DNA of 64,000 nucleotides from Hanleya hanleyi (lineage: Eukaryota > Mollusca > Polyplacophora > Lepidopleurida > Hanleyidae), in the NCBI GenBank assembly GCA_036873755.1, contig JAVTVY010025177.1:37859-101858 (forward strand), given 5' to 3'. This document shows, piece after piece, positions 1,699-64,000 of this stretch. The notes beneath the pieces are model-generated. The model did no database searches. It saw only the letters and a program-made list of their open reading frames with translations, and had not been told where the DNA came from. Within the stretch, counting starts at the first letter, position 1; every line of letters begins with the position of its first letter. Position numbers and translations under genes: made by a program.

Positions 1699-3639
1699 AA
1701 TGGTGTGTTCTTGTGCATTTTGACAGAATATTTAGACTTTGAAGATGGTGTGTAATGATGCCCCAAAATGAACTGAATTCTCCGTGTCATCTGTTAGTCT
1801 GTCTCTGTCTGCCCATCTTTCTTGTCATACCACACATGCAGCTGGTGATGGATCAGAAGCCTAGTGAAATTGACTGACCTTCACCTGTTTTATCGAGGTC
1901 AAATTTAGCATTAGCAATAATTTTTAAAGGCGTGAAGACAGGCTCTCCAAATTTATAATACTTGTGCAATTGGTGACTGACTAGAAGCCTATCCCAGTTG
2001 ACTGAATCTATTTTCTCGGGTTATATACTGTATATTATGATATAACATGAAATATAGCTGGGCATTCTAAATTGATACCACATATGCAACTGATGATGGA
2101 CCTGGAGTCTATGAAAATGACTGACATTGACCTATTTTCTCAAGGTCAAAAACTGTATGTTAAGTCACATGTTAACTGCCAATATACACTTCAAATCTAA
2201 CATTGTCGTCATTTTGTTGTGGCTGTGGTTTTTCTTCCAGAACAATTTAGCGAATTTTGCATGTGTTCCAACAGCCTCATGCTTCAACAGTAACTTAAAC
2301 CATGCTGTATCGGCTGAGCTGTTGAAACACCCTCCATTTCCTAGCTCTGACATACTGCATCACTGTCGAAATATGGGTACCCGGTACCAAGACAGAGTGA
2401 TAGATCACACAGCCAGTGAAGGTTCCCAATTTACACATGTACATTGAATGTCGTTATTGCCCATTTTACAACAACAACAATTCGCTGATTTACAGTGAAA
2501 AATTATAGTGAAAGGTATATGTTTTTTGTTGTTTGGCATTTTTATTTGCTGGAATTGTTTCAGATAGAATACAACAGCGTAATTCATACAATCAGGAATA
2601 AAAAGGGGGTTAAAATCTGTATGCTCAAACTTTTGTAGGAAATATAGAAGTGGCAATTTGAAATTTTATTTTTATTCGATTTTTTAATGTCGGTGGGCCC
2701 ATGAAACGCAAAATAAAGTTGGTGTTGCCTCGCACTGGGTTTCGACCATTGATGAAGAAATCCCTTCTCAGAGGCACTTCTACCAGGGATGATTCCTGAT
2801 TGCTCATCCTCCAGGGGTATGTGCCCCACCCTCTGTCCCATCCTAAAAACAATTGCCACCCCTAATAGGGGGTGTGCCCAAATTGGGGAGATCTAAAGCC
2901 CTGTGAGTACCAAATTAATTATGTGTTACAAAATTATCTGGGGAAATGCTCTTTGCCCGTGTTTCACACGAGCTTTAATTGTTTCTATACGATTAGTATA
3001 TACAGTAAGAGATGTACCGAATGTTCACGGCATTGCTTTGCTAACTCGGGTTCAAATTTCCGGTTTACATTCAGGCAACCTTTATGAGGTAAAACGATTT
3101 CCTCCAGGAAACAATTAAAGTCGCACGAGGAAACCGAATGGAGTAGGGCGAACGAATCTTTTCAACTCTTCTGAAACTTAGCTATTTAGAAATTTTCCTC
3201 GGTGAATAATTCAAGCGAACAAAATAATTCATGAAAACTGTCAGTGAAGAGTATATGATGGATGATACCATTAATATTATTCTGTAGATTGATCATAACT
3301 GACGTCGTCACATTCCCGGGTCCTGGTTGACCCGTAAACTGGAAACCGACAAGTCCAATTAGCAGGGGGAATAACTCGAAGCCCATAAATAGTTTACTAC
3401 ACGTATGTGATTCGATATGTTTACCTTATTCTGGCCCAAAAAGGAGACAATTTTCATCGATTACTTATGTGAGAGGTCGACAAACTTAGAATGACACATC
3501 GTCAGTAATCATGAACCTCTGTCAGTCCGCGATAGGCCGATAGTATTGTGAAATTTACTCCACTGAAAACGAGATTATAGTAACAATTGAATATTATTTG
3601 AATAGATGATGAATTAACTGTTAACCGAGGGGTTCAAGT
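1699..3639. other. intergenic DNA, no supported gene
   Basis: Short open frames (for example 2127-2447 on +) have no recognisable motif and normal non-coding composition. A B-box-like GGTTCAAGTCCC at 3628-3639 lacks the rest of a tRNA. Confidence 0.4.
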
Positions 3640-4360
3640 CCCTCGACGTTGAGGCAATTGATTTGGTTTGGAACCGTAATGTTTAGTACGGCATGGAGCC
3701 GAGCAATCGCAAGTGAGATCCAGTGACCAGGTACCCACAATTACCAAATTTTACCCTAATCATCAGTTCTTGTCCGGAAATGAAATTTTAACTTGGCCCA
3801 AAGGTAGCATCGCCTATAGATAGGTTGCTCGGCATGAAAAACAATCCCAAGCGAGACCTTAGGCGAGAGTAGTGGCAAGGTAGGCACATACCTAATTTGA
3901 AAAGAATCCGTTCCGTTTTCGAAAAGTTGTGGTCCGGAAACAAAATTTTAACTGTTGGCGTCACCTATAGGCGGATCGGCGTGAAAAACAATCCCAAGCG
4001 AGATCTTGGGCGAGGTACCCACATACCAAATTTGAAAAGGAATCCATTCAGTTTTCAAAAAGTTATTGCCCGGAAATGAAATATTAACTTGGCGCCACCT
4101 ATAGGCGGATCGGCGGGAAAAACAAAACCGAGCGAGATCTTGAGGTGAGGTACCCATATACCAAATTTGAAAAGAATCCATTTAGTTTTTCAAAATTTAT
4201 TTTCCGGAAACGAAATTTCAACTTGGCCCCCAGGTGGCGCCACCTAAAGGCGGATCGACGTACAAAACAATCCCAAGGGAGATCTTGAGGTGAGGTACCC
4301 ACTTACCAATTTTGAAAAGAATCGATTTAGTTCACCAGAAGTTATTATCCGGAAACGAAG
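3640..4360. repeat. tandem repeat, ~135-145-bp units, about four copies
   Basis: The phrase ACCAAATTTGAAAAGAATCC recurs at about 3891, 4026, 4160 and 4306. Each is followed by a CCGGAAAC/TGAAAT block, a CGCCACCTATAGGCGGATCGG block and AACAATCCCAAGCGAGATCTT. A divergent head (3640-3850) with TTGGTTTGGAACC is shared with 36048-36190. The same unit plan reappears, more diverged, at 21640-22790. No protein is supported. Confidence 0.7.
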
Positions 4361-4714
4361 TCGGACGGACGCTCCGTCGAACAGTCGAAATTTAGGGGCT
4401 TATAATTGTGCAACATTGAAACGAAACATTGTTGAAAGTTCGTTACAATGTTCCACAATTATCCATTTCAAAGACAGTTTCCTTAAGCAAAATGACATTT
4501 TAAAAATCGTTTCTTATTGAGAAATGACAATTTCTTATAGAGAAATGACATTGTTAAAATGGTTTCTTATAGATAACTCCCATATTGAAAAGGGTATTTT
4601 AATATGAGGAATCACCTTTTCAATATGTAGGATTAGGGGCAACCCTTAACACCAAAAAAGCCCTTAAGGTTTGGATGGACGGGGAAAAACCCATAAAGGT
4701 CGAATGTTAGCACA

Positions 4715-4795: not shown

Positions 4796-5145
4796 AAGCA
4801 CCACCCAGCACAGTTGTGTTCCTGCTACTTTAAAGGCGAAATCTTTGAAGCAGCATGGAACCAGACACCATCCATCCACCCTGTAAAACACTGAGGACAG
4901 CGCGCAAGAGACAGACAGGACGCTCACATGGTGCAATAAACACAAGTGATATTACAGTGCTAGACATCACATTCAAGTTCCTGTTGCTTCTCAGCAAAAT
5001 GCATTGAAGCAACAGGAACATGAACCCACCCAACCACCCGCTAGCACTGGCGGACGGACCGACGGACCCCAATACTATAGTTCCCCTTTATATTAGTCCT
5101 TCGGGCGTAAAGCTTCACTTTGTATCTCCCCCTTATCACTGAAAA

Positions 5146-5410
5146 ACAACGGCAAGGCTTTGGTGTAAGACCTCCCATTGAAAAGGTAATATCCTGGACA
5201 AAAGACTGACAATACAACTTGCAGCAGATCCTTTGTGAATTATATTTCGTGAGTCTTACACCAAATCGTTGCCAAAACAACGGCTAGGCTTTGGTGTAAG
5301 ACCTCCCATTGAAAAGGTAATATCCTGGACAAAAGACTGACAATACAACTTGCACCAGATCCTTTGTCAATTATATTTCGTGAGTCTTGCACCAAATCGT
5401 TGCCAAAACA
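5146..5410. repeat. tandem pair of a ~131-bp inverted-repeat unit
   Basis: Two near-identical units are offset by 131 bp (GGCTTTGGTG at 5156 and 5287). Each begins near GGCAAGGCTTTGGTGTAAG and ends with GTCTTACACCAAATCGTTGC, which are imperfect inverted copies of each other, so each unit is a MITE-like element with ~20-bp termini. A lone copy of one terminus occurs at about 34958-34987. Confidence 0.55.
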
Positions 5411-27844: not shown

Positions 27845-28230
27845 AGTCAGGGCCGTAGCCACGATTTACTGAGGGGTGGTTCGCCTTCATTCCAAAAGGG
27901 CACATCAGGGGATTTGCTATATGGGGAAAAGGGGCAGGTAGGGGATTTGCTGTTTGAAAAGGGCATTTATATGAGAAAAATATATAATATTCTGAAAATG
28001 GGGTTCGCCCGAACCCAGAACGCCCCTCCCCCCGGCTATGCATGGGCGTCGCTAGGATTCTTCAAAGGGGGGTCGATTATCATAGCACTTTAGGCGAGGG
28101 TCCAGGGGCCGCCTAGGCCCGGAAGCTCCGGGGTCCTAGATCGCCGGAGAGGCGTTCTAAGCGTTTTCCCGGAATTAAATCTGAACATAATGTATGCAGA
28201 TTTAGGGTTATATTATACAGCTCTGAGACC
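27845..28230 (+). repeat. first unit of a ~330-bp dispersed/tandem repeat
   Basis: The block GGCGAGGGTCCAGGGGCCGC (28092), GGAAGCTCCGGGGTCCTAGA, CGTTTTCCCGGAA and ATGTATGCAGATTTA recurs at 32843, 33165 and 33503. The 4.4-kb fold-back element at 28414 appears to have landed within this array. Confidence 0.55.
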
Positions 28231-28407: not shown

Positions 28408-28413
28408 GACCAC
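28408..28413. repeat. target-site duplication GACCAC, left copy
   Basis: Identical to 32824-32829 directly beyond the other terminus. Confidence 0.65.
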
Positions 28414-31400
28414 AGTAGTAGTATACATGCAAAAAAGGTCATATTGACCTCTTTGCACTTAAACTTGAGGCGTTGGCGCTGGAGATTGGAAAGTGACCTC
28501 TGCCAGAGTTTGGCCGCCATCTTGAATTTGGTAAAAAACTTGACCAATGTGGCAGCGGCTTATTCTCTTGAACTCTGATACAAGGTCACGTGACCTTTGT
28601 ATTCCTCCGCGGTGATGCGGTCACGTCTGGTGGTGATGCGGTCGCGGGATAAAGCTTCCGCGGAGAAAAAGTAGTCCCCGGACTTCAAATACGCTGCATG
28701 GTCCGATTGGGTCGAGTGAGGCATCAAAGTGAAGCATTCGTGAAGGGGCATCTGACGGGCTGGGGGTGGGGTTGAAATATCGTCATTCTGCGCATGCGCG
28801 GTGGACAAAGGGTATGGAAATAGACGTTTTGGGGTCTATGGGGGCCACTAATGGCCCGATGGATTTGAGTGAGGTATCGTTGTAAAGGATACGTGAGGGG
28901 GCATCCGCCTGGACTAGTATGGCGTGGAACTGACGTCATTCTGCGCATGCGCAGTAGACAAAATGTATGGAAATAGACGTTTTGGGGTCTAGGTGGACCT
29001 CTAATGGTCCAATGGAGTTGAGTGAGGTATCAATGTAAAGCAGTCATGAGGCAGCATCCGCCTGCACTAGTGTGTCGTCCGTTTTCGACATTCTGCGCAT
29101 GCGCAGACAGGGAATTGTGGGAAAAGGGTATGGAAATAGACGTTTTGGGGTCGAGGTGAGCCCCTAGTGAACCGATGGAGTCTTATGAGGTATCGTTGTG
29201 AAGCATTCGTGAAGGAGCATGCGCCTGGTCAAGTCTGTCGTTCGTGTTCAACAGTCTGCGCATGCGCAGACAGGGAATTGTGGGAAACGTGCCTTGGAAG
29301 GAACGTTTTGGGGTCTAGGTGGGCCACTAATGGTCTGATTGAGTCGAATGAGGTATCAATGTGATGCATACGTGAGGGCGCATCCGCCTGGGTGGCTGGG
29401 TGTTAGGAATATCGTCATTCTGCGCATGCGCCGGCAGGCCGTAGTATGGAAATAGACATTTTGAGGCCGATATGGATCACTATTGGTCCGAATGTGTCTA
29501 GGGAAGTGTTATTTTGTAGCACTCGGGGTGTAGACCACGACTTGAAGGGATGTCCTCGCCACCTGACGTCACAGGTGACGTCATCAGTGAGAGTAGTACC
29601 GAAAGCGGGAGTTTCGGAGGTGCGATGGAGTGCATTTGGAGTAGAGTTACCTGTGAGTGTGAGTGTATGCGCGCGTGTGAGTGAGTGAGTGTGAGTGCGT
29701 GAGTGAGGCGTGCACAACGCCCGTGAGGCGTCCCCAACGCCCGTCTTAACGCATGGACGCACTAACGACGGTGAGTGAGTGAGTGAGTGAATGAGTGAGT
29801 GAGTGGGATCCGACTGCACTAATGTATCGTCCGTTTTCACCATTTTGCGCATGCGCAGTCTGGCCCTCGTATAGAAAGCAGGCATTTGGGGGATTCGTGG
29901 CGGTTTGTGGGGTGGTTGACCATCCCGGGTCAAATGGATCGTGTGGGGTATCAGTGTGAAGCTCTCGTAGGAAAAGTGGAAATTGCCTCTCATTTGTGGG
30001 GCGCTCACTTCCGGTTGTGGGGCGCTGCCCTCAGCCAATCAGAAGCGAGTATTTTGACCCGGTGCATTATGGGACATATCCAAGATGGCGGCGTCTGCCC
30101 TCTGGTTCAAGATGGCGGGACGTCCGGTGTCGAAACCTGACCATTTTGTCGGAATGTGGTCATCTGGTGTCGAAAACTGGACCCTGTATGGGTCCCGCCT
30201 AATTTCGTGTTGAGGTGGACCACCCTTGGTTCGAATGTGACAGACACCACCACCACCACCACCACACACCACCGCACACCACCACCACCACCACCAACAC
30301 CGGGCGTTCACGGGCGTCAACGCCCGGTGGTGGTGGTGGTAGCTTCCGTGTGGCAGAGCTCTTGGATCGGAGCTCTTGGAGCTCAAAGCTTGTGGAGCTC
30401 AGAGCTCGGAAATGACGTCATCGCATGCATGCGCGCGTACCTGTGCTGCACCCGCACCCTGGTGTACCCTATTCCCTACGGGGTATAGGGTACAGGGTGC
30501 ACCACAGGTGTGCTCCGATCCAAGAGCTCTGCCACACGGGAGCTACCACCACCACCACCGGGCATTGACGCCCGTGAACGCCCGGTGGTGGTGTTGATGG
30601 TGGTGTGCGGTGGTGTGCGGTGGTGTGTGGTGGTGGTGGTGGTGGTGTCTGTAAATATAGGAATGAACATGTGTCCCTCATCAGTCCAAATCGTGGGAAA
30701 ACATTGGCACTGAGCCAATTATAAAGCATATTCTTTCGCTACTACTCGTACTGATGACGTCACCGATGACGTCACAGATGCTGTGGACATCCCTCAAATG
30801 GAGTCTACACCCCGAGAACTGCAAGATGACACTTCCCACGTCACATTCGAACCAAGGGTGGTGCACCTCTACACCAAATTAGGCGGGACCCATACAGGGT
30901 CCAGTTTTCGACACCAGATGACCACATTCCGACAAAATGGTCAGTTTTCGACACCGGACGTGCCGCCATCTCGAACCAGAGGGCAGACGCCGCCATCTTG
31001 GATATGTCCCATAATGCACCGGGTCAAAATACTCGGTTCTGATTGGCTGAGGGCAGCGCCCCACAACCGGAAGTGAGCGCCCCACAAATGAGAGGCAATT
31101 TCCACTTTTCCTACGAGAGCTTCACACTGATACCCCACACGGTCCATTTGACCCGGGATGGTCAACCACTCCACAAACCGCCACGAATCCCCCAAATGCC
31201 TGCTTTCTATACGACGGCCAGACTGCGCATGCGCAAAATGATGAAAACGGACGATACATTAGTGCAGTCGGATCCCACTCACTCACTCATTCACTCACTC
31301 ACTCACTCACTCACCGTCGTTAGTGCGTCCATGCGTTAAGACGGGCGTTGGGGACGCCTCACGGGCGTTGTGCACGCCTCACTTACTCACTCACTCACTC

Positions 31401-32823
31401 ACTCACACGCGCGCATACACTCACACTCACAGGTAACTCTACCAGGTAGTTGGATGTAAAAATAGGCCGTTATCTACTCCAAATGCACTCCATCGCACCT
31501 CCAAAACTCCCGCTTTCGGTACTACTCTCACTGATGACGTCACCAGTGACGTCACAGGTGACGTGGACATCCCTTCAAGTCGTGGTCTACACCCCGAGTG
31601 CTACAAAATAACACTTCCCTAGACACATTCGGACCAAAATGTCTATTTCCATACTACGGCCTGCCGGCGCATGCGCAGAATGACGATATTCCTAACACCC
31701 AGCCACCCAGGCGGATGCGCCCTCACGTATGCATCACATTGATACCTCATTCGACTCAATCAGACCATTAGTGGCCCACCTAGACCCCAAAACGTTCCTT
31801 CCAAGGCACTTTTCCCACAATTCCCTGTCTGCGCATGCGCAGACTGTTGAACACGAACGACACACTTGCCCAGGCGGATGATCCTTCACGAATGCTTCAC
31901 AACGATACCTCATAAGACTCCATCGGTTCACTAGGGGCTCACCTCGACCCCAAAACGTCTATTTCCATACCCTTTTCCCACAATTCCCTGTCTGCGCATG
32001 CGCAGAATGTCGAACACGGACGACACACTAGTGCAGGCGGATGCTGCCTCATGACTGCTTTACATTGATACCTCACTCAACTCCATTGGACCATTAGAGG
32101 TCCACCTAGACCCCAAAACGTCTATTTCCATACATTTTGTCTACTGCGCATGCGCAGAATGACGTCAGTTCCACGCCATACTAGTCCAGGCGGATGCCCC
32201 CTCACGTATCCTTTACAACGATACCTCACTCGACCCCATCGGACGATTAGGGGCCCACCTCGACCGCAAAATGTCTATTTCCATGCCCTTTTCCCACAAT
32301 TCCCTGTCTGCGCATGCGCAGAATGTTGACAACGGCCGAGTCCACTAGTCCAGGAGGATGCCCCTCACATAGGCTTCACATTGATACCTCACTCAAATCC
32401 ATCGGACCATTAGTGGCCCCCATAGACCCCAAAACGTCTATTTCCATACAATGACGATATTTCAACCCCACCCCCAGCCCATCAGATGCCCCTTCACGAA
32501 TGCTTCACTTTGATATCTCACTCGACCCAATCGGACCATGCAGCGTATTTGAAGTCCGGGGACTACTTTTTGTCCGCGGAAGCTTTATCCCGCGACCGCA
32601 TCACCACCAGACGTGACCGCATCACCGCGGAGGAATACAAAGGTCACGTGACCTTGTATCAGAGTTCAAGAGAATAAGCCGCTGCCACCTTGGTCAAGTT
32701 TTTTACCAAATTCAAGATGGCGGCCAAACTCTGGCAGAGGTCACTTTCCAATCTCCAGCGCCAACGCCTCAAGTTTAAGTGCAAAGAGGTCAATATGACC
32801 TTTTTTGCATGTATACTACTACT
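28414..32823. mobile_element. 4.4-kb fold-back element with ~2.1-kb inverted arms
   Basis: The ends AGTAGTAGTATACATGC (28414) and GCATGTATACTACTACT (32823) are perfect inverted repeats, flanked by GACCAC on both sides (28408-28413, 32824-32829). The arms stay complementary almost to the centre near 30478. Each arm has a GGTCATATTGACC end block, then ~150-170-bp units with GCGCATGCGC and TGGAAATAGACGTTTTGGGG, then a (GTGA)n/CGCCCGT block, TGACGTCA pairs and a (CAC)n tract. The right arm carries about 200 bp (30660-30862) absent from the left, and the left arm about 85 bp (about 30370-30450) absent from the right. No transposase is encoded. The 6-bp duplication and AGT...ACT ends are compatible with a Polinton/Maverick-type integrase; classical fold-back or P/Galileo-like elements are alternatives. 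Confidence 0.75.
28789..29860. promoter_or_regulatory. six GCGCATGCGC palindromes in left arm
   Basis: GCGCATGCGC occurs near 28792, 28946, 29095, 29259, 29422 and 29849, usually as TGCGCATGCGCA. This matches the palindromic consensus of the transcription factor NRF1. Six mirrored sites lie in the right arm (near 31224, 31668, 31832, 31993, 32146, 32311). Function is inferred from motif match only. Confidence 0.35.
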
Positions 32824-32839
32824 GACCACTATCACAGCC

Positions 32840-41519: not shown

Positions 41520-42155
41520 CTGATCTGCATACATTGATTCCCGTGCGACTTTACCAGGGGATGGGGCGGGGCGGTCGGGAAAACTTGAGAAAGTCGATCG
41601 TGGAACTAACATGAACGTATTTTCTCTCTCTTATAGGATAGAAGTTGCTAATGTCTGCGATAAGCTCCTGGTCAACGCTTTCTCCTGGAGATGACGATTT
41701 AGCCACCAGTGGAAAGCCGAAGCCCATGTTTTGCCGCAGTATCGTCATATTGAGATGATGTGACCAAATAGTTAACCCTCGTCGAAAACGTGAAAGCTGC
41801 GATACGCAATTCCGTTCCCAAATCAGACTCAGTTTAGGCCCTGCAATCGTCCCATGTTGAGGTCACAATATGTCATCGCGGACAATGACCAGTAGAGGAC
41901 ACAGATTAAACCCAGCAATGTGGATGTAATATTAGACCGTTCTTATAATCCCGAACAGTGAAGGTCATTCTATATATTTAATCCCAGACCAAGTCAAATG
42001 GCGGACGAGCTATAATTACGACAATCTAGTGGAGGAAACGCGATAAACTCAACAAAAGTTACCGGAGGTCTTGCTACATATGCAGATCCGGTCAAAGTAA
42101 AGTGTCGTTCTCTATCCTCAGTCCGCCATATTGTTTCGTTACGCTTTATGGCAAT
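41520..42155 (+). promoter_or_regulatory. upstream region of the LicD/FKRP-like gene
   Basis: No TATA box is obvious. CAAATGGCGGAC at 41995 resembles a YY1-type motif (core ATGGCGG), which is often found close to transcription starts; this is weak evidence. Short upstream reading frames begin at 42080 (ATG CAG ... TAA) and 42148 (ATG GCA ATA TGA); the second overlaps the chosen start codon. Confidence 0.3.
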
Positions 42156-45021
42156 ATGACACGGTGGGCGAATAAGAATTTGATTTACTTCATCGCCGTC
42201 TTGTTTGGCGTTGTTGTGGTATTAAAATGGCGCAGTAATTACAGCACGGAATTGACTCTGCAAGAAAAACTCCGACTAGCTGAAGAAAGAATAGGATCTC
42301 TCGCAAGTCAGTTAAATGCTAGAAGACCAGAAGAAAAAGGCGAGTCCCTGGTTCTCCTCAAACGCCAATTGGGACGGGACTTGGACTCTGTCTCGGCTCG
42401 GGCATCAATTGAGAAAGAAGTCACTGTGATTATGTTCTCATTCGAAGAGTCTGCCGAATGTCTCAAATCTAGAATAGAAAAGCTAGTGAAGGATTATCCC
42501 AACATTAAAATATGTGTTGTAACTTCGGCTAGTTATGATAATCCAACGTCTCATAAAATAGATTACTTACCAAATATTGCGAAGGAAGGGGAAGCCCTGA
42601 AAACCGCAACGAAGGACTTGAAATCCAAGTATTTTCTCTATTTGTCTACGGGCACGGAGATATCGCCGCATGTGAGTGATAACAGTATAAGTTGGTTATT
42701 CCACGCCCTGGAGAAGATTCCAGAGTTGGACTTCGTGGGGGGCTCTTTCCTCCGTCACGCGGAAGGGTTTAAATATCCTATATTTGAAGTTCACTGTCAT
42801 CGCCTTCGTATGTGCAACTGGACATTCTCCCAGTCGTACGAATACCGGTACAGCGTAGATGATATGATGATATGCGAGGAAACGTCGCCATCTTTCATGG
42901 GTCGTGTGAGCAGTTTACAAAAAGTCCCGAGTCAATTTGACCCAAACTTGGACACAATGGCCACTACCGACTTTTTCCTCCGGGCAAAGGGCAAGGTTGT
43001 TGCCGGTCTCAGACCGGAAGTTAGATTCACGCTGCCGAAAATCTGTCGACTTCCGGCCTGGTCCAAAACAAGAGAGGCTGATTTGAAACTAGAATTTATG
43101 AAGAAACACCAGCTTTATATCACCAAAGACTCGTGGGGACGAGAAGTTCAGGCAGCCGATTCGAACAATTACGGTTCCCTAATGTATAATATTAATCATC
43201 TAAGTGAGCACACCTACCATAACCCTTTATACATTCGTGGACTATTGCTCAACCTGGAGACCAGTGCCGATTTTTATGAATCCAAGGTTTGTTCATGTTC
43301 TACATTTAACGGGTATTTTCCCCCCTTATCCGATACATCCAGTTTGAACGAGTACATTTACATCTACCATACGCGCTTTACAAATTATACGGCACAATTT
43401 TTCCCCATAATACAGCGGCCACTTCTTTCTGAAATATATGTAGATGCGAATCTTCGTCTTGTGTGGACCGATGATTGGAGACTGACTCAAATGCGGTCAC
43501 TTTTATTGTAGCATGGGCGTGGCTTTTCGCTGTTTCAAATGTTTATAGAAATTCAAGGAAGTTTGTGAAAGCTCAGAAAGGGCCACGTCTTTGTTGGTCA
43601 ATCAAGTTGAACTTTACATGAAAATTTGAATTATTATTCATTTAACCCCAGAGTAAGATAATCTCGTCAAGATCGCCAATCTCCGCGAGCACAATCGTGA
43701 AGAGGTCCGTGAGTTCTGCCTTGAGCTCCGCAGTACGTGGTCTTGTCACTGAGCGGCTTTTATTTGGCAAAATGCTCAGAAGTAGTCTGCGTAACAGTAA
43801 ACTGCATCTTACTTTAATCCGGTTGTGAAAAATTCATAAATGATGACGGCTACATATCGTCTGAATATCGCAACTATAAGTATTCCGATAATATATGTGC
43901 TTTACCAAGAAATATTATCATAAAATTGTTTTTATATTTACTATTCTCGTTGTTCTCAGAATATTTCCTATTTTCTGGACGGTGGAATGACCCTGGGTGG
44001 ATATAAAATGAGAGGAATTTTACCCTGGGACTTGGATATCGATCTGGGTTTCTTCTCACCAGATTGGGAAGGAATCCGAGATGGTCTGAAGGAACATTGC
44101 CGAGCGAAGGGGATCGGTGCTACAGTGACGGCAGGTATATTAAACAATGACAGAAGTTGAATACGTGATCAAACTCGCCTGTTCTTGCATTACATTGTTT
44201 GCCACAGTGATGAGTCGTATTCCACTCATCAGAGGAGAGAGAGAGATATGGGGGGGCGGGGGGAGGGGGAGTTAAATTAAAACGGACCCACTGCTGATGA
44301 AGTTAATCAATCCGCATATCTGATATTTTGAAGCTCTTCTTTTGTCTCTTAATTTACCATTTCCTATGTAAATTCTATATTCTCTGTTTCCACTTATCCT
44401 ATATCTCTGTGAAATTCTCAAACTTCAACACTGCATGAACTATTGAACACCGTAACAGGTAATCGGGGCAGTGGTGAGGTGTCTATATTAGTAAAGCACC
44501 AATCTTACCAAAATATTTGCTGGTTTCCCTCTAGCCGATAGCTGACAATCCCTAAAATGAAGACGAATCTAAGTAATAGGTCACGTTTGTTCGATATCCC
44601 TTTCGGTTTGAAAATTAGATCTTTCTATTTACTCTTACAAACACTAATCGATAGAGCCACAGTAAAATGCACTCCGGCTCTTAACAACATATTTATCTTT
44701 TATTTTTCATTGACAGGGGATTGGATTGAGGGTATGCACGAAATCACTCTCCGAGCCGAGAAGTTTGCCTACTGTGATATGTATCAACATGTGTTTGTGA
44801 ACGAGGACTGGTTCATGTATATGCCTATCCATGGACGACATTACCCGGTTCTTAAAAATCTAACAAGAGGACTTCGTGAAATGTATGGATTGCACTTTCT
44901 GGAAAATCGCGCGGGGAGAAAGGATATTATGAAGTGTAAACTTCCGGGACACCACGCATGCGTACCTGACGAGTATTCATCTGGGGGCGGCCATTGGCGA
45001 GAATTTTTTTGTCAGTCCTAG
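42156..45021 (+). CDS. LicD / fukutin-related (FKRP-like) Golgi transferase, three exons
   Basis: Predicted type II membrane protein of 536 residues, spliced 42156-43286, 43960-44134, 44717-45021. Junctions are AAG|GTTTGT, CTCAG|AAT, GCAG|GTATAT and GACAG|GGG, and phases 0 and 1 join without a break. Residues 8-23 form a signal anchor and about 29-56 a short coiled stem. Residues about 85-330 resemble the glycosyltransferase-like stem domain of FKRP. Exon 2 holds FLDGG (382-386) and PWDLDIDLG (399-407); D401, D403 and D405 are the expected metal ligands of the LicD nucleotidyltransferase fold. Exon 3 completes the domain with a CDMYQHVF stretch and ends in HWREFFCQS. FKRP transfers ribitol 5-phosphate from CDP-ribitol to alpha-dystroglycan glycans; other LicD proteins move phosphocholine. 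Substrate here is unknown. I chose ATG 42156 because the open frame's upstream part has no ATG and 42156 has A at -3. Human FKRP (495 aa) is slightly shorter. Confidence 0.82.
43287..43959 (+). other. intron 1 of LicD/FKRP-like gene
   Basis: 673 bp, GT-AG. The exon 1 frame stays open for another 225 bases into the intron and stops at 43511, so retention would give a 451-residue stem-only protein lacking the catalytic motif. Confidence 0.75.
44135..44716 (+). other. intron 2 of LicD/FKRP-like gene
   Basis: 582 bp, GT-AG, phase 1. It contains a G-rich tract at about 44251-44272 and a pyrimidine-rich stretch before the acceptor TTTTTCATTGACAG. Confidence 0.75.
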
Positions 45022-52872: not shown

Positions 52873-55574
52873 TTAAGTATTACGATTAAGTGACACACCC
52901 GCTACAAGCTGGGCAAGGAGCAGATGTGTCTTAGCCATATCAGCAATTGTCTGTTGATCTACAAGGGGTGGACTATCAGAGGCCACCTCTTCTCGTACTG
53001 CTGCACGAGGTAAGTTATGCGGGTTGGGGTGTTTACCCGCCGTAACACGTGTTGTGCGTCTGATTCCAGCATGTCCGCGAACATCCACTGCAGGTTCTAC
53101 AACCTCAGGTTCAACTGGATCCGACTCTTCCACTTCGTATGTGGCATCACCAGTATCTTCAGGCTCCCCCACTTCAAGGATGCTACCAGGTTCACCGACC
53201 ACACCACCCGACTCTTGACGAGCTTCAGGATCTCTGACATCCTGCACAGTTTCCGCAGGTCTTTCGACTTGGGGGCTAGCCACATCCCTGTGCTTCACCG
53301 ACGTCCTATCCTGTTTTCCTATGAAGTCCTCTATATGGTCATCCAGGCTGCCATATACTTCATACTCAACATCCTCGTCATCACTGGAATCCGTGGTGTC
53401 ACTGACTACTGGCTCATCCTTTGGTACTTTAGCCTCGGGGTGTATATCTTCTGCCAACGTTTTGGCCTCCAAGATGTCTCGCCTGTTCACTGTCTTGCGA
53501 TGACCAGATAAACCAGATTGCTCTACAAGGTAAGTATGTCCCTCAGGACTCATTCGCTTCATCACGCGATATGGAGTAGAGTCCCAGAAATCTTGAATTT
53601 TGTTCCTGCCTCGCACTGATCGATTACGAAGGAATACTCGGGCTCCCACTGGCAAGTCCGTATTCTGAGCACCTTTGTCCAGACGTTTATTCCGGCGAAG
53701 AGCTTCCTTTTCTGTCTTAGCAGAGGCTGAATTGAATGCTTTTGTTAGCCGCTGTTGATGTTCGCCAACCCATTCATCGATAGCATCACCATTGTTGGCT
53801 GCTCTGCCCCCTGGAGATTCACCGGACAGCAGGCAATCAATTGGCAGTCGGGGCTCCTGCCCGAAGAACAAGAAATATGGTGCATAACCTGTTGAAGCAT
53901 GAGGTGTCACGTTGTAGGAATAAACAAGTTCAGGTAAGTATTCGGGCCATTTGCGCTTCTGGTCAGCAGGGAGTGTCCGTAGCCTGTCGTGGAGTGTTCT
54001 ATTCATTCGCTCGCACTGACCATTTCCTTCCGGATGGTATGGTGTAGTCCGGCTTTTAGAGATGTTATAGGTCTTGCATAATTCCTGGATCACTCGGCTT
54101 TCGAAATTTAGCCCCTGGTCGCTATGGAGTCGAAGAGGGATCCCGAACCTGACAAACCAATCTTTAACAAGAACTTTTGCTGTTGTCCTGGCTTGTTGGT
54201 CTTTCGTTGGAATTGCTTGACTGAACTTAGTAAAGACATCTGTCAATACCAAGACGTTCTCCATCCCGTTACTTGCACGTTCCAGTACAGAATAGTCCAT
54301 AGAGAGGACTTCCAGTGGCCTACTGGCAATAAGGTTCCCGACTGACGAATGAAGTTTCTTCCCGGATTTGGCTAGAGTGCAGCGCTGGCACTGCTGACAA
54401 TACGTAGCCACGTCACAGTTTATGGTTGGCCAGTATGCTCTGGTCTGCAGGAGTGCTAGTATCCGCTCCTGTCCCTGATGACCATTGTCATCGTGTACGG
54501 CTTTCAACACACGCTGTTTTAAGCTTTCTGGAACAATAAGCTGTTGGATTTCCTTGCCTGTGCTCTTGATGATTCTGTACATAACACCATCTCTCTCTGT
54601 TAGACGATGCCATGACCGAAGTAGTTTACGGGTGGTCTTGTTCTCCTTCCTGAGTTGTCGAACAGATGGCTGGCTTTTTCTGTCCCAGAAGGTTTTGAGT
54701 CTGGAAATCGATTCATCTGCAGACTGTAGTCTAACCAGCTCATCCTTGGAAATTGACGGAAACGTAGATGTGGTGCCTTGGGGACTCATCTGGACCTCCC
54801 CCTGCACTACATCTTCCAAGTGCTCGTGGATCCTACTTATCAAAACTCTGGGTAAAGGGGTTGATGACGCCAAACTCCTCATGTCACAGGTAATGGATTC
54901 AAACCGCGTTGTTCTGGGCTCCCTTGTATGTGTCTCCTTTCGACTCGGTGCGTCCGCATTCGCGTTGCTCTTGCCAGAGCGGTACTTCACTTCAAATCGA
55001 AAGTTCGCTAGTTCTGCTGCCCATCTGGCCTCCGTTGCTCCCAGCTTCAGAGTCGACTGTATGTAGCTCAAGGGATTATTGTCTGTATAGACCACGAATT
55101 CGGCTCCGATCAAATAATCCCGATATTTCTCAGTTATGGCCCATTTCAGTCCTAACAGCTCAAGCTTCATGCTGGAGTAATTCTGCATATTTCTTTCTGC
55201 TGGTCTCAATGCACGACTCGCATACGCTATGACAACGGGTCCGTCTTCCTGTTTCTGCGAGAGAACTGCTCCCAACCCAAAGTGGCTGGCGTCAACTTCA
55301 AGTGTGAATGATCTGGTGAAGTCCGGATATCCGAGAACCGGTGATGAGGTAAGTTTTTCCTTTAATGTCCGAAATGCTGTCTCACAGTTTTCATCCCACA
55401 CGAACTTGGACGGTGCATTCGAAGTTTTGTTCCACACTTTCTTTTACCTTTCGGAGAATCCCTGGTGAGCTGGTGCAGTGGGGCAGCGATCTTTGCGAAA
55501 TCTCGCACAAACCGTCTATAGTAACCCGCGAGGCCAAGGAATTGTCTCACTTGGCGCTCACTCTTTGGAGTGGG
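52873..55574 (-). pseudogene. pol: Gypsy pol, RNase H and integrase part
   Basis: The 854-codon open frame (55437-52873) carries RNase H with acidic residues D49, E93, D119 and D162. Integrase follows with a zinc-binding H315-x4-H320-x29-C350-x2-C353 and a DD35E core of D381, D440 and E476. A basic C-terminal region (about 600-680) and an acidic tail with RRTTRVTAGKHPN near the end follow; no chromodomain is seen. The frame does not begin with a real start: upstream codons 55574-55450, the RT-RNase H linker with QFLGLAGYYRRFV, are in the RT frame. A one-base loss in an A-run near 55441-55446 explains the shift. All catalytic residues in this part are present. In life this product would integrate element cDNA. 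Confidence 0.85.
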
Positions 55575-56618
55575 TCACTCACTAACTGCCGTAATCTTGT
55601 CAGGGTCAGGGGAAACACCTTTCTCCGAAACTACATGGCCAAGGTAACGAGACTCCTCCTGAAACAAGTGGCACTTTGTGGGTTTCACCTTGAGGTTTAG
55701 TTCTTTAAGACGGGTAAGTACCATGTCAAGCCGGTCAATGGTTTCTTCGAATGTGGATCCGAACACCAGAATGTCATCGAGATAAATCAAGAGTGTTCGA
55801 AAGTTTTGGTCACCAAATGCCTTGTCCATTATTCTCATAAATGTCGCAGGGGCGTTACAAAGCCCGAAAGGCATTCGAGTGTACTCGTATAGTCCACCGG
55901 TTCCTATACGAAAAGCGGTCTTCTCTCGATCAACCTCTGCTACCGACACTTGATGAAAGCCATGGGCGAGGTCCAGACTGCAGAAAAACTTTGCTCCCTG
56001 AAGAACATCTAGAGACTCCTCAATCCGTGGTAACGGATAAGCATCCTTTGCTGTTTTGGCATTGAGGGCGCGGTAATCCACGCACATACGTAACTGGCCA
56101 CTCTTCTTCTTAACGAGGACAACAGGTGAGGAATAAGGACTATGTGATTCCCTGATGACTCCCATCTCAAGTGACTTCTTTATGTACTCCCGGACTTCAT
56201 CCCAATGGTGCGGAGGGATCCTTCGATGCGGGACTTTGATTGGACGGTCATCAATAGTTATAATCTTGTGCTCCACCAAGTCACAATGCCCAATATCCTC
56301 ATCCGTTTTACTGAAAACGCCCTGGTAATTTGACAGAGTTTGTAGAAGCTTCTGGTATTGTTCAGCATCTAAGCCCTTTCCAATATCCATTTTGGATGCT
56401 AGTTGCTCTATATCGGGTGCCAATGATGTACTAACTCCAGCTTCCTCGATGTTCACTTCACAGAAGCTTATTTCACGACAATCAAGTGTCTGACCAGATG
56501 CATCCTCCAAAACAGCAATGGGGGTTCTGGGTTGCAAGTAGATGTCCTTATCCCCAAAGTTGGCCAGTTGAATGGGTACCCTACCAGTGGAATTCACGCT
56601 TACCAAACCTCTACCAAT
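55575..56618 (-). pseudogene. pol: Gypsy pol, reverse transcriptase part
   Basis: Reverse transcriptase with CVDYRALN, SLDLAHGFHQV, MPFGLCNAPATF and the catalytic YLDD (about residues 275-278 of the open frame). The frame is cut at its start by the internal deletion (no ATG; sequence becomes LTR at 56619) and ends at an in-frame TGA at 55575-55577. The TGA sits where related elements usually have tryptophan, just before the linker to RNase H, so it looks like a point mutation. The first ~100 residues probably join the end of protease to RT. Confidence 0.87.
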
Positions 56619-57564
56619 AATAAATTGAGTTCATCACAATTGAATCCAAATTAATTATTAAAGAAGATATCCTGTATGCTCGATTAGTCCATTTACAGTG
56701 AGCGCATTTCCAATAAACAATTTGACATACAGAAGTTGTGTCCCTTGTTATGTTTATCAACTCCAACGTATACATCTAACACCGTGGACGATTACATTTA
56801 ATTACGTCATCGGTATACAAAAGCTTTCGGCAATATTACTTATACAATGCATCTGACATAAATTCAATCAGTAAACATTATAGTGTTTTGCGTTATTTAC
56901 ATCTTAAGTTGACAGATCCCACAAACGGGGAAATTATGCACAGACAAGAGTCTCCCGTCTGGGGTTATGCTACATTCTCCGACAGTAAATGAACTGAGTA
57001 ACCTTCCATATTACGCGATACAGTGTTACGATTACAAGCGTCTAGTCCGTCATTCATAATCCAGCCGTCGTCCATTAGAGAATATCCGCGTCCATAATCC
57101 AAAGACCTATTCCATTTCCATATAACAGTATTAGCACCAAATTCAAAAAGGCAAAAGTATACATAAACATGGGCTTGTTTCCTGCAAGAGAGAAGCGGTC
57201 AACAGTTTTCAATGACAGCACAGGCTACACAATTTAGCATGCAACAGAAATACGTCGTCAACAAGTTACAAAGTAATATTGTTTCACTGAATATAAATCA
57301 GAACATTCTTCGTAACATAGCGTCATATTTACCTCAAAAATACAGTCTTGTCTCGTATTCTGAATCGAATTTAGGGTCTGTAAGTTAAGCAGATCTATGC
57401 AGCGTGCTGATCTCTCCATATCACAACGCACGTTTTGAATCAATCGCCTGTTCGATGAACTAGGTCACACAGATGTTCTGGAATTCATGGCGAGGCTCTA
57501 GACAAGTGGGTCTCGCTGTCGGGAGAGTGACTTTAATTGCTGTACCAGTTTCGCCCGTCACACA
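56619..57564 (-). repeat. 5' LTR of Gypsy element, inner end lost
   Basis: Matches the 3' LTR except for two substitutions (TACATCGAACACC against TACATCTAACACC; CAAGTAGGTC against CAAGTGGGTC) and about 182 bp present only here (57031-57212). The inner end stops at AATAAATTGAG and is joined to pol. Confidence 0.85.
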
Positions 57565-59744
57565 AGATCTACAACTGATATCATATTTATCTTGTTTGTT
57601 CAATCCAAGATCTACAACTGATATCATATTTATCTTGTTTGTTCAATCCAAGACCTACAACTGATATCATATTTATCTTGTTTGTTCAATCCAAGACCTA
57701 CAACTGATATCATATTTATCTTGTTTGTTCAATCCAAGACCTACAACTGATATCATATTTATCTTGTTTGTTCAATCGAAGACCTACAACTGATATCATA
57801 TTTATCTTGTTTGTTCAATCCAAGATCTACAACTGATATCATATTTATCTTGTTTGTTCAATCCAAGATCTACAACTGATATCATATTTATCTTGTTTGT
57901 TCAATCCAAGATCTACAACTGATATCATATTTATCTTGTTTGTTCAATCCAAGATCTACAACTGATATCATATTTATCTTGTTTGTTCAATCAAGACCTA
58001 CAACTGATATCATATTTATCTTGTTTGTTCAATCCAAGACCTACAACTGATATCATATTTATCTTGTTTGTTCAATCCAAGATCTACAACTGATATCATA
58101 TTTATCTTGTTTGTTCAATCCAAGATCTACAACTGATATCATATTTATCTTGTTTGTTCAATCCAAGACCTACAACTGATATCATATTTATCTTGTTTGT
58201 TCAATCCAAGATCTACAACTGATATCATATTTATCTTGTTTGTTCAATCCAAGACCTACAACTGATATCATATTTATCTTGTTTGTTCAATCCAAGATCT
58301 ACAACTGATATCATATTTATCTTGTTTGTTCAATCCAAGATCTACAACTGATATCATATTTATCTTGTTTGTTCAATCCAAGATCTACAACTGATATCAT
58401 ATTTATCTTGTTTGTTCAATCGAAGATCTACAACTGATATCATATTTATCTTGTTTGTTCAATCCAAGATCTACAACTGATATCATATTTATCTTGTTTG
58501 TTCAATCCAAGATCTACAACTGATATCATATTTATCTTGTTTGTTCAATCCAAGATCTACAACTGATATCATATTTATCTTGTTTGTTCAATCCAAGATC
58601 TACAACTGATATCATATTTATCTTGTTTGTTCAATCCAAGACCTACAACTGATATCATATTTATCTTGTTTGTTCAATCCAAGATCTACAACTGATATCA
58701 TATTTATCTTGTTTGTTCAATCCAAGATCTACAACTGATATCATATTTATCTTGTTTGTTCAATCCAAGATCTACAACTGATATCATATTTATCTTGTTT
58801 GTTCAATCCAAGATCTACAACTGATATCATATTTATCTTGTTTGTTCAATCCAAGACTCCACAACTGATATCATATTTATCTTGTTTGTTCAATCCAAGA
58901 TCTACAACTGATATCATATTTATCTTGTTTGTTCAATCCAAGACCTACAACTGATATCATATTTATCTTGTTTGTTCAATCCAAGATCTACAACTGATAT
59001 CATATTTATCTTGTTTGTTCAATCCAAGATCTACAACTGATATCATATTTATCTTGTTTGTTCAATCCAAGATCTACAACTGATATCATATTTATCTTGT
59101 TTGTTCAATCCAAGACCTACAACTGATATCATATTTATCTTGTTTGTTCAATCCAAGATCTACAACTGATATCATATTTATCTGTTTGTTCAATCCAAGA
59201 TCTACAACTGATATCATATTTATCTTGTTTGTTCAACCCAAGACCTACAACTGATATCATATTTATCTTGTTTGTTCAATCCAAGACCTACAACTGATAT
59301 CATATTTATCTTGTTTGGTTCAATCCAAGATCTACAACTGATATCATATTTATCTTGTTTGTTCAATCCAAGATCTACAACTGATATCATATTTATCTTG
59401 TTTGTTCAATCCAAGATCTACAACTGATATCATATTTATCTTGTTTGTTCAATCCAAGACCTACAACTGATATAATATTTATCTTGTTTGTTCAATCCAA
59501 GATCTACAACTGATATCATATTTATCTTGTTTGTTCAATCCAAGACCTACAACTGATATCATATTTATCTTGTTTGTTCAATCCAAGATCTACAACTGAT
59601 ATCATATTTATCTTGTTTGTTCAATCCAAGATCTACAACTGATATCATATTTATCTTGTTTGTTCAATCCAAGATCTACAACTGATATCATATTTATCTT
59701 GTTTGTTCAATCCAAGATCTACAACTGATATCATATTTATCTTG
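57565..59744 (+). repeat. 43-bp minisatellite, 50 units plus 30-bp partial
   Basis: The unit runs AGATCTACAACTGATATCAT, then ATTTATCTTG, then TTTGTTCAATCCA. Position 5 is T in most units and C in a scattered minority. Four single-base indels (near 57991, 58856, 59183, 59316) cancel, so the 2180 bp equals 50 x 43 + 30. The array begins at the first base after the LTR end and stops after TTATCTTG at 59744. Units contain the palindrome TGATATCA. No spacers or coding content. Confidence 0.95.
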
Positions 59745-63205: not shown

Positions 63206-64000
63206 AGTAGTAGTGTCAACGGGAATAGAGTCATATTGACCTCTTTGCACTTAAACTTGAGGGGTAACTCTTGATTTCCCTAAATCATCCGCCAGGGGGC
63301 GCCATCAGCTCAAGGCTCTGGATTGCATCAGCATTGGCTGTGTGCCAAGTTTTGACCACTATAGGTCTGGCAACCTTTGACCTTTGTATTCCTCCGCGGT
63401 AATGCGGTCATGTCTGGCGGTGATGCGGTCGCGGAAAAAAGCTTCCGCGGAGAAAAAGTAGTCCATAGAATTCAAATACGCTGCATGGTCCGATTGGGTC
63501 GTATGAGGTATCAATGTGAAGCATTCGTGAAGGGGCATCTAATGGGCTGGGTGCGGGGTTGAAATAGCGTCATTCTGCGCATGCGCGGTGGACCAAGGGT
63601 ATGGAAATAGACGTTTTGGGATCTAGGGCAGCCACTAATGGTCCGATGGAGTTGAGTGAGTTATCAATATGAAGCCTATGTGAGGGGGCATCCGACGGGT
63701 GGGTGTGGGGTTGAAATATCGGCATTCTGCGCATGCGCAGTAGACCAAGGGTATGGAAATAGATGTTTTGGGATCTAGGGGAGCCACTATTGGTCCGATT
63801 GGTTCGAGTGAGGTATCAATGTGAAACCTATGTGAGAGGGCATCCGATGGGGTGGGTGTGACGTGGAACTGACGTAATTCTGCGCATGCGCAGTAGACCA
63901 AGGGTATGGAAATAGACGTTTTCGGGTCTTTGTGGGCCACTAGTGGGCCTATGGAGTCGTATGAGGTATCAATGTGAAGCCTATGTGAGGGGGCATCCGT
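63206..64000 (+). mobile_element. second copy of the AGTAGTAGT fold-back family, cut by window end
   Basis: It starts AGTAGTAGTG, then GTCATATTGACCTCTTTGCA as at 28440. Next come a CCTTTGTATTCCTCCGCGG ... GATGCGGTCGCGG block as at 28597 and arm units with GCGCATGCGC (near 63577, 63730, 63881) and GGAAATAGACGTTTTGGG. The first ~150 bases between the shared blocks differ from the 28.4-kb copy. The rest lies beyond the window. Confidence 0.7.

Follow-up and report, generated by a model that had tools for sequence, protein, structure and literature searches.

The window analysed here is a 64,000-nucleotide stretch of the genome of the mollusc Hanleya hanleyi (NCBI GenBank assembly GCA_036873755.1, contig JAVTVY010025177.1, positions 37,859 to 101,858 of the forward strand). 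Our data indicate that a 4.4-kb palindromic element in this window is almost certainly a non-autonomous derivative of the Polinton/Maverick elements, animal transposons that resemble viruses. This assignment follows from its (AGT)n ends, its 6-bp target duplication, the Polinton genes found between the same ends in other copies, and the published ends of Mavericks. In the full explanation that we favour, with a probability of about 0.72, the element is a gene-less Polinton derivative that would be mobilised in trans, its palindrome would have arisen by copy-back, its arm repeat arrays would be a cis-acting region, and its source would be relatives that carry a finger/terminal-protein-like (finger/TP-like) gene.

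Results

Structure of the element and its insertion site

The ends read AGTAGTAGTATACATGC from 28414 and its exact reverse complement finishing at 32823. An earlier model reading of the letters alone (the sequence-only reading) had described perfectly inverted ends flanked by GACCAC, and this is what we found. It had given the element as 28408-32829; the ends and the duplication stand, and the element proper is shorter, because the outermost bases are the two duplicates. Its description of the element as nearly all inverted arm also holds, since near-symmetric arms make up 95% of the 4,410 bp in a self-comparison. In 12 other measured copies (C15297 was left out) this share is 13-88%. The first and last 375 bp (28413-28787/32450-32824) are 99% complementary. 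Inside this outermost pair follow 28801-29463/31635-32297 (97%), 29771-30241/30840-31310 (98%) and shorter pairs down to 30260-30373/30512-30625, the series being 97%, 98%, 98%, 88%, 98% and 88% around a centre near 30440. The palindrome is an inverted duplication of the interior of one side, beyond long terminal repeats, as far as the comparison of copies below can tell. The features are as follows.

28414..32823, no strand: the element, almost certainly a fold-back Polinton/Maverick derivative, without recognisable gene; 4,410 bp, 95% inverted arms
28408..28413, no strand: left target-site duplicate GACCAC, read at the junction
32824..32829, no strand: right target-site duplicate GACCAC, read at the junction
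28414..28440, + strand: left terminus, 27-mer AGTAGTAGTATACATGCAAAAAAGGTC, common to copies bearing Polinton genes, up to a few mismatches
32797..32823, - strand: right terminus, reverse complement of the left 27-mer
28414..28621, + strand: terminal 208 bp; its identity to the ends of C15347, a copy that bears PolB, is 92% for one end and 98% for the other
28698..29391, + strand: left arm, 153/163-bp tandem units, several with the NRF1-type site YGCGCAYGCGCR
29653..30241, + strand: inner left arm, of which 29653-29967 matches the interior of C18853 (L055:3843-4157)
30260..30625, no strand: palindrome centre, arms 30260-30373/30512-30625, loop 138 bp
30840..31310, - strand: inner right arm, 98% complementary to 29771-30241
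31694..32450, - strand: right arm, 153/163-bp tandem units in inverted copy
63206..64000, + strand: start of a second, diverged family copy that runs off the end of the contig; its terminal 57 bp match at 84%, and element positions 178-810 are matched at 81%

The element has one open frame of at least 150 aa, without Pfam match, and PolB, integrase, capsid, ATPase and protease are not encoded. Because it has no PolB, we call it a non-autonomous derivative and not a Polinton. A 207-aa open reading frame (ORF) at 29418-30038 (-) was rejected as a gene, as it had no Pfam hit and its matches elsewhere were broken pieces tracking repeated DNA. The insertion target is a tandem repeat of about 328 bp, and other units in the window lack the element. 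The unit at 28067 aligns gap-free across the joined flanks with one 6-base copy. This support for an empty site is modest because there are just 10 bases left of the junction and the 6-mer differs in that unit.

The family and its target duplication

The window's own 2.48-Gb assembly was searched. The terminal 393 bp as query gave 4,150 candidates, among which 40 were scored, all with at least 93% identity. Allowing up to 3 mismatches, we counted the terminal 27-mer 111 + 105 times, against 0 + 0 for a reversed-pattern control. Among 100 listed 27-mer places, facing ends were present on 25 contigs (named here by handles such as C15347); 24 copies were read, 14 whole and 10 at the ends only, and C18836 was left out. 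An identical 6-mer lies on both sides in 20 of these 24 copies, the window copy included, and duplications of 3, 4, 5, 7, 8 or 9 bp fit none of them. When left and right flanks were deliberately mismatched, 4 of 552 pairings had the same 6-mer, all four among three flank-sharing copies. Neither the ends nor the duplication can thus be put down to chance. C11473 (4.0 kb) and C37191 (7.3 kb) have the same 6-mer and flanks 95.5% and 96.6% identical. They appear to share one insertion site, and the 20 matching copies therefore represent 19 sites.

Among 53 distinct termini the first 26 bp are near-constant, and the following bases fall into several unlike classes, one of them common to complete elements. 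The pattern looks as if ends had been swapped between lineages. An inverted-repeat hormone-receptor-like site near the ends (AGGTCA-N3-TGACCT) was rejected; it is perfect in only 2 of the 53 distinct termini, both the window's.

Polinton genes between the same ends

C17040, C50259, C11331 and C15347 share an identical terminal 17-mer and have perfect 6-bp duplications (AGAGTC, CCCCGA, AACACC and TAGCTG, respectively). The first three (11.8-12.0 kb) carry an rve integrase, an A32-type ATPase, a capsid-like ORF, a complete or partial adenain-like protease ORF, and other ORFs; the integrase of C17040 has a chromodomain in addition. The ATPase matches Pox_A32 at 7e-6, and the protease matches Peptidase_C5 at 7e-4, just under cutoff. 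The capsid-like ORF, resembling a major capsid protein (MCP), has no Pfam hit itself. A protein search with it gave 1,850 homologues, and its homologue P0149 has the Pfam double-jelly-roll (DJR) domain above cutoff. C15347 (14.0 kb) carries a 1,330-aa PolB ORF, whose own DNA_pol_B_2 matches are far under cutoff. Its C-terminal 600 aa gave 1,212 homologues, PF03175 is present on many of the 120 listed, and P0001, which is 65% identical to the PolB ORF, passes the DNA_pol_B_2 cutoff. The named homologues of PolB and of the MCP come from molluscs, echinoderms, corals and an anemone, and lancelets. In sequence searches of the PDB the MCP had no match; the N-terminus of PolB drew weak matches to zinc fingers, and the C-terminal part of PolB weak ones to Vsr endonuclease.

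The sequence-only reading had proposed a fold-back parasite mobilised by Polintons, and had named a different duplication length or a P, Mutator or other transposase between matching ends as evidence to the contrary. No P, Mutator or other cut-and-paste transposase was found in 39 distinct ORFs chosen from 12 same-ended copies; Polinton genes were there instead. The tabulated flanking 6-mers agree with the proposal, as do the many PolB and integrase loci of the same genome, among which the complete elements have AGT-repeat ends and that on C25776 a 6-bp duplication. The proposal is thus supported by the ends, the duplication and the Polinton genes of same-ended copies. Reverse-transcriptase ORFs in C11473, C37191 and C15297 are probably nested retroelements.

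Several further features of these copies were seen. C15347 has an ORF with CARD and PC4 domains (L043:1151-2353), an unexpected Polinton cargo. The C-terminal part of its PolB (L043:8200-9999, -) has a stretch like the Vsr mismatch endonuclease at residues ~105-186, and two listed homologues are so named. C50259 carries its integrase and ATPase genes twice in tandem (L041:3302-6955). Smaller copies (L054:2122-2865, L053 and the interior of L058) carry a second A32-type ATPase, whole or in pieces, which has diverged and matches the one in C17040 at 41-58%; the Pfam match of the L054 ATPase is under cutoff. A nested repeat of about 340 bp in C15347 (L044:3600-3944) is young, being 99-100% identical at 39 or more other places. 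A genome search with the C15347 end region listed 39 places beyond C15347 itself, and all 39 were hits to this unrelated repeat.

The finger/TP-like gene

Four ORFs, one in C18853 and three in C18445, match residues 34-189 of the translated N-terminal stretch of the C15347 PolB at 58-62%, and a scan of the four found C2H2 fingers in two. PolBs of this kind in eukaryotes are described as having an N-terminal D1 domain, predicted to be the terminal protein that primes DNA synthesis, and after it an OTU-like domain (PMC11071308). Judging by position, residues 34-189 may correspond to D1 and are probably a terminal-protein domain. The ORF has at least 124 genomic matches, scored among 47,788 first-look candidates, and 112 of the 124 are without stop. 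Four copies, compared in pairs with our own Nei-Gojobori script, have dN/dS values of 0.32-0.55, which is mild constraint as judged from the sequences. On at least 14 contigs two copies lie 0.5-3.3 kb apart in divergent order (-,+). Among the matches listed, the order (+,-) was found on no contig and same-direction copies on 3. A protein search, which is blind to proteins much longer than its query, returned 5 proteins. P0122 has fingers joined to the same PolB N-terminal-like domain and, as we read it, continues into the next PolB part, and therefore the gene may be a shortened PolB N-terminus. An AlphaFold model of P0122 (mean pLDDT 43.5, from 3 sequences) was not used. The product could possibly be a trans-acting primer or an inhibitor of a helper polymerase.

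Interior DNA doubled and inverted

Comparison of copies indicates how the palindromes are built. C15849 has terminal repeats of 1.65 kb and an interior without inverted repeats of 150 bp or more. C9502, with arms of 3.36 kb (97.5%), holds C15849 positions 2639-3308, 3861-4463 and 4948-5218, with gaps between, in both arms, and these are single-copy in C15849. Its loop of about 0.9 kb begins with C15849 2639-2130 and ends with about 350 bp unmatched in C15849. C9502 itself lies within the ATPase gene of a Polinton, as its two flanks correspond to adjoining segments of this gene in C17040, C50259 and C11331. C18445 has three copies of the gene region of C18853, two in one direction and the third inverted. 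The window element holds C18853 3843-4157 twice, at 29653-29967 and inverted at 31114-31430; in C18853 this is single-copy interior DNA, 0.2-0.5 kb upstream of a gene. Thus C9502, C18445 and the window element, compared with less palindromic relatives, have one end duplicated in inverted orientation beyond the normal terminal repeat.

Arm repeats and NRF1-type sites

The palindrome YGCGCAYGCGCR of the 153/163-bp units occurs 10 times in the element, once in the other 58.8 kb counted and not at all in 200 shuffles. It appears in papers on the factor NRF1. TGACGTCA occurs 9 times in the element and 2 times elsewhere, and AAGATGGCGG 5 times and 0 times. The element has 2 copies of each of the ETS-type motifs CCGGAAGT and CCAATCAG, and the window outside it has 4 of each; neither these nor CCAAT-type motifs are enriched in the element. 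NRF1-type sites are present in 12 of 13 other whole-read copies, 7 to 18 in each and mostly spaced 152-164 bp; they are absent from C15347. On the integrase side of three complete elements (described below) about 200 bp separate the end region from the first-gene region, and C17040 has an array of about 1.65 kb there.

Complete elements and half-genomes

Genome searches, in which the best candidates were scored, gave at least 74 PolB, 111 integrase and 92 MCP matches. On C25226, C25776 and C15141 the PolB and integrase matches are no more than 10 kb apart, and on C7726 and C28333 the distance is greater. We therefore rejected, in its strict form, the claim that no element carries both genes. 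PolB and MCP are convergent and at most 1.6 kb apart on C3476, C24439, C6766, C7208 and C26874, and 18 kb apart on C28333. The complete elements have AGT-repeat ends, the end letters on C15141 being AGTAGTAGTATAAGCG. That on C25776 (~115959-131290, ~15.3 kb) has convergent PolB and integrase genes, ends AGTAGTATAG//CTATACTACT of the AGTAGT type and the duplication TTTGTT; it is the sole complete element with both ends read.

Integrase and MCP are together on at least 12 contigs, within about 7.5 kb on 11 of these, C17040 included. Ten such contigs other than C17040 were probed by 1-kb stretches at the expected PolB position, where PolB was found once (C30194), terminal-repeat arrays eight times and a finger/TP-like gene once (C22019). 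With C17040, C50259 and C11331, which were read whole, adjacent PolB is absent from 11 of 13 integrase/capsid clusters. The finger/TP-like gene of C22019 (56962-57962, L100) stands behind the integrase and MCP cluster, at the place where PolB was expected.

Sixteen PolB copies, taken in list order, were probed on the protease side with 0.8-kb stretches; 7 led into C15347-like DNA, 7 into protease/capsid and 2 into neither. With four MCP-adjacent copies (C3476, C24439, C6766 and C26874), 7 of 20 are capsid-free and C15347-like, 11 protease/capsid and 2 neither. The AGTAGTAGT end is present in C13028 and C40177, both of the C15347-like class, where C15347 predicts it; their far ends were looked for and not found, and no end was recognised in the stretch of C37273 that was read. 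The half-genomes are repeated classes, most of them probed at one place and in incomplete lists.

Other features of the window

A Gypsy-type retrotransposon polyprotein lies at 52876-56630 (-), split between an ORF with reverse transcriptase and another with RNase H, zinc-binding and rve integrase domains. A 43-bp satellite (about 51 copies, 98% match) occupies 57563-59744, and a 493-aa open frame without Pfam match lies at 42030-43511 (+).

Discussion

The window element has the inverted repeats of (AGT)n or (AG)n type by which Polintons are recognised, here AGTAGTAGT//ACTACTACT, and their 6-bp duplication. Vertebrate Mavericks are described with (AGT)2//(ACT)2 ends, 6-bp duplications, a common layout of convergent modules and, for intact elements, a mean length of 16.9 kb (PMC8097293). 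The window element differs from Polintons/Mavericks in being gene-less, palindromic and about a quarter of that length, and several relatives are half-genomes. The Ginger transposons have a related Gypsy-like integrase core, but Ginger1 and Ginger2 are reported with 4-bp duplications and TGTNR ends, and TDD-4/5 with 5 bp (PMC2836005), unlike the 6 bp and AGT ends here.

Very long arms of tandem units are also known from Foldback and Galileo (PMC3573991, PMC4168063), and the element could in principle have no relation to Polintons and be a classical fold-back or long-terminal-inverted-repeat cut-and-paste transposon, from the P superfamily or Mutator. This is contradicted by the lack of such a transposase in the 39 ORFs, by the presence of the same ends on integrase, capsid and PolB elements, and by the duplication, which is 6 bp in 20 of 24 copies and no other length from 3 to 9. 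Such an origin is highly improbable. Foldback and Galileo have target duplications longer than 6 bp.

As a Polinton derivative, the element would very likely be replicated and inserted in trans by the PolB and integrase of Polintons. The fold-back layout, in which single-copy interior DNA is present twice and inverted, is the layout of copy-back genomes made in protein-primed replication. Adenoviruses and similar protein-primed viruses produce snap-back or copy-back defective genomes. The likeness lies in the stem and loop and in one end duplicated in inverted orientation together with interior DNA (C9502 compared with C15849), but the copies described here are integrated in the genome with target duplications and are not in virus particles. 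Protein-primed synthesis from one end may switch to the displaced or nascent strand and return to the same end, which would give a two-ended snap-back molecule for the integrase to insert. We regard this as the best single mechanism for the palindrome, with about even odds. The immediate source is likely to be the relatives with the finger/TP-like gene, and the window copy would have kept the DNA just upstream of this gene in both arms and lost the gene itself.

In adenovirus, host-factor sites adjoin the replication origin. By analogy, one may guess at a host-factor-site role for the arm repeats, and their arrays with NRF1-type sites might be the cis region of an origin or promoter, a suggestion that we make tentatively.

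Several observations weigh against the explanation as a whole. The NRF1-type motifs are consensus matches only. No single element was shown to have PolB, integrase and exactly the window's 27-bp ends, and the integrase-side ends of the three complete elements match those of other copies at 70-80% over ~120-220 bp. C11473 and C37191 differ by a block of about 3 kb at apparently one site; therefore copies are also restructured where they sit, or between sites that were duplicated. Three of the 24 copies have no matching 6-mer, and C9502 has 5 of 6. The two ends of C15297 are 20.7 kb apart and probably belong to two elements, and C21102 has the right flank of C37191 (200/200 bases) with a different left flank. 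In the third, C2271, the contig is inverted together with 1.5 kb of flank at 99.3%, and it is probably an assembly chimera. C2271 has the form expected of an assembly artefact, in which a long read that is chimeric or has a missed adapter creates an inverted repeat. For the window copy such an artefact is extremely improbable: its outer flanks differ, its 6-bp duplicate is perfect, its arms are not identical but 88-99% complementary, and it has numerous relatives at other sites.

The main rival accepts mobilisation by Polintons and places the origin of the palindrome in situ after insertion, through gap repair or break-induced synthesis templated by the opposite terminal repeat, a proposed route for fold-back transposons. 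The 3-kb block in C11473 and C37191, which includes palindromic DNA, is in its favour, as is the loop region apparently flipped in C12410 relative to C9502, expected of recombination between arms. However, palindromic copies have both ends and the 6-bp duplicate intact (the window copy and C18445; C9502 in 5 of 6). The same divergent order of the finger/TP-like gene on at least 14 contigs suggests that ready-made palindromes propagated. We consider in situ formation unlikely, and copy-back before insertion remains our preferred reading.

Non-autonomous Polinton derivatives are not a new idea, since the Tlr elements had at one time been proposed as one (PMC4028283). In the titles and abstract openings of the open-licence literature we found no description of non-autonomous, fold-back, palindromic, segmented or terminal-protein-carrying Polintons; subscription papers and Repbase lay outside this search. 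What is new here is the fold-backs with single-copy interior DNA doubled and inverted, the half-genome classes, and the repeated, mostly intact finger/TP-like ORF.

Polintons are thought to be integrated viruses, and to our knowledge their replication has hardly been watched. It is conceivable, although we hold it doubtful, that a divided Polinton community, segmented or satellite-bearing, lives on one set of ends beside complete elements. Some members would carry integrase and capsid genes but no PolB, and others PolB but no capsid (with the CARD/PC4 gene in C15347). Satellites would encode C2H2 fingers joined to the PolB terminal-protein-like domain, as a stand-alone primer or an interfering protein. 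Snap-back palindromes without genes, of which the window copy is one, would act as defective genomes and possibly interfere. If the explanation is true, strand switching in protein-primed replication would have left integrated copy-back palindromes in animal genomes as its fossil record, and a copy-back origin would explain fold-back elements with 6-bp duplications. The finger/TP-like gene and the half-genomes that share ends would then represent parasites and a division of labour among Polintons, which can be searched for in any species with such copies.

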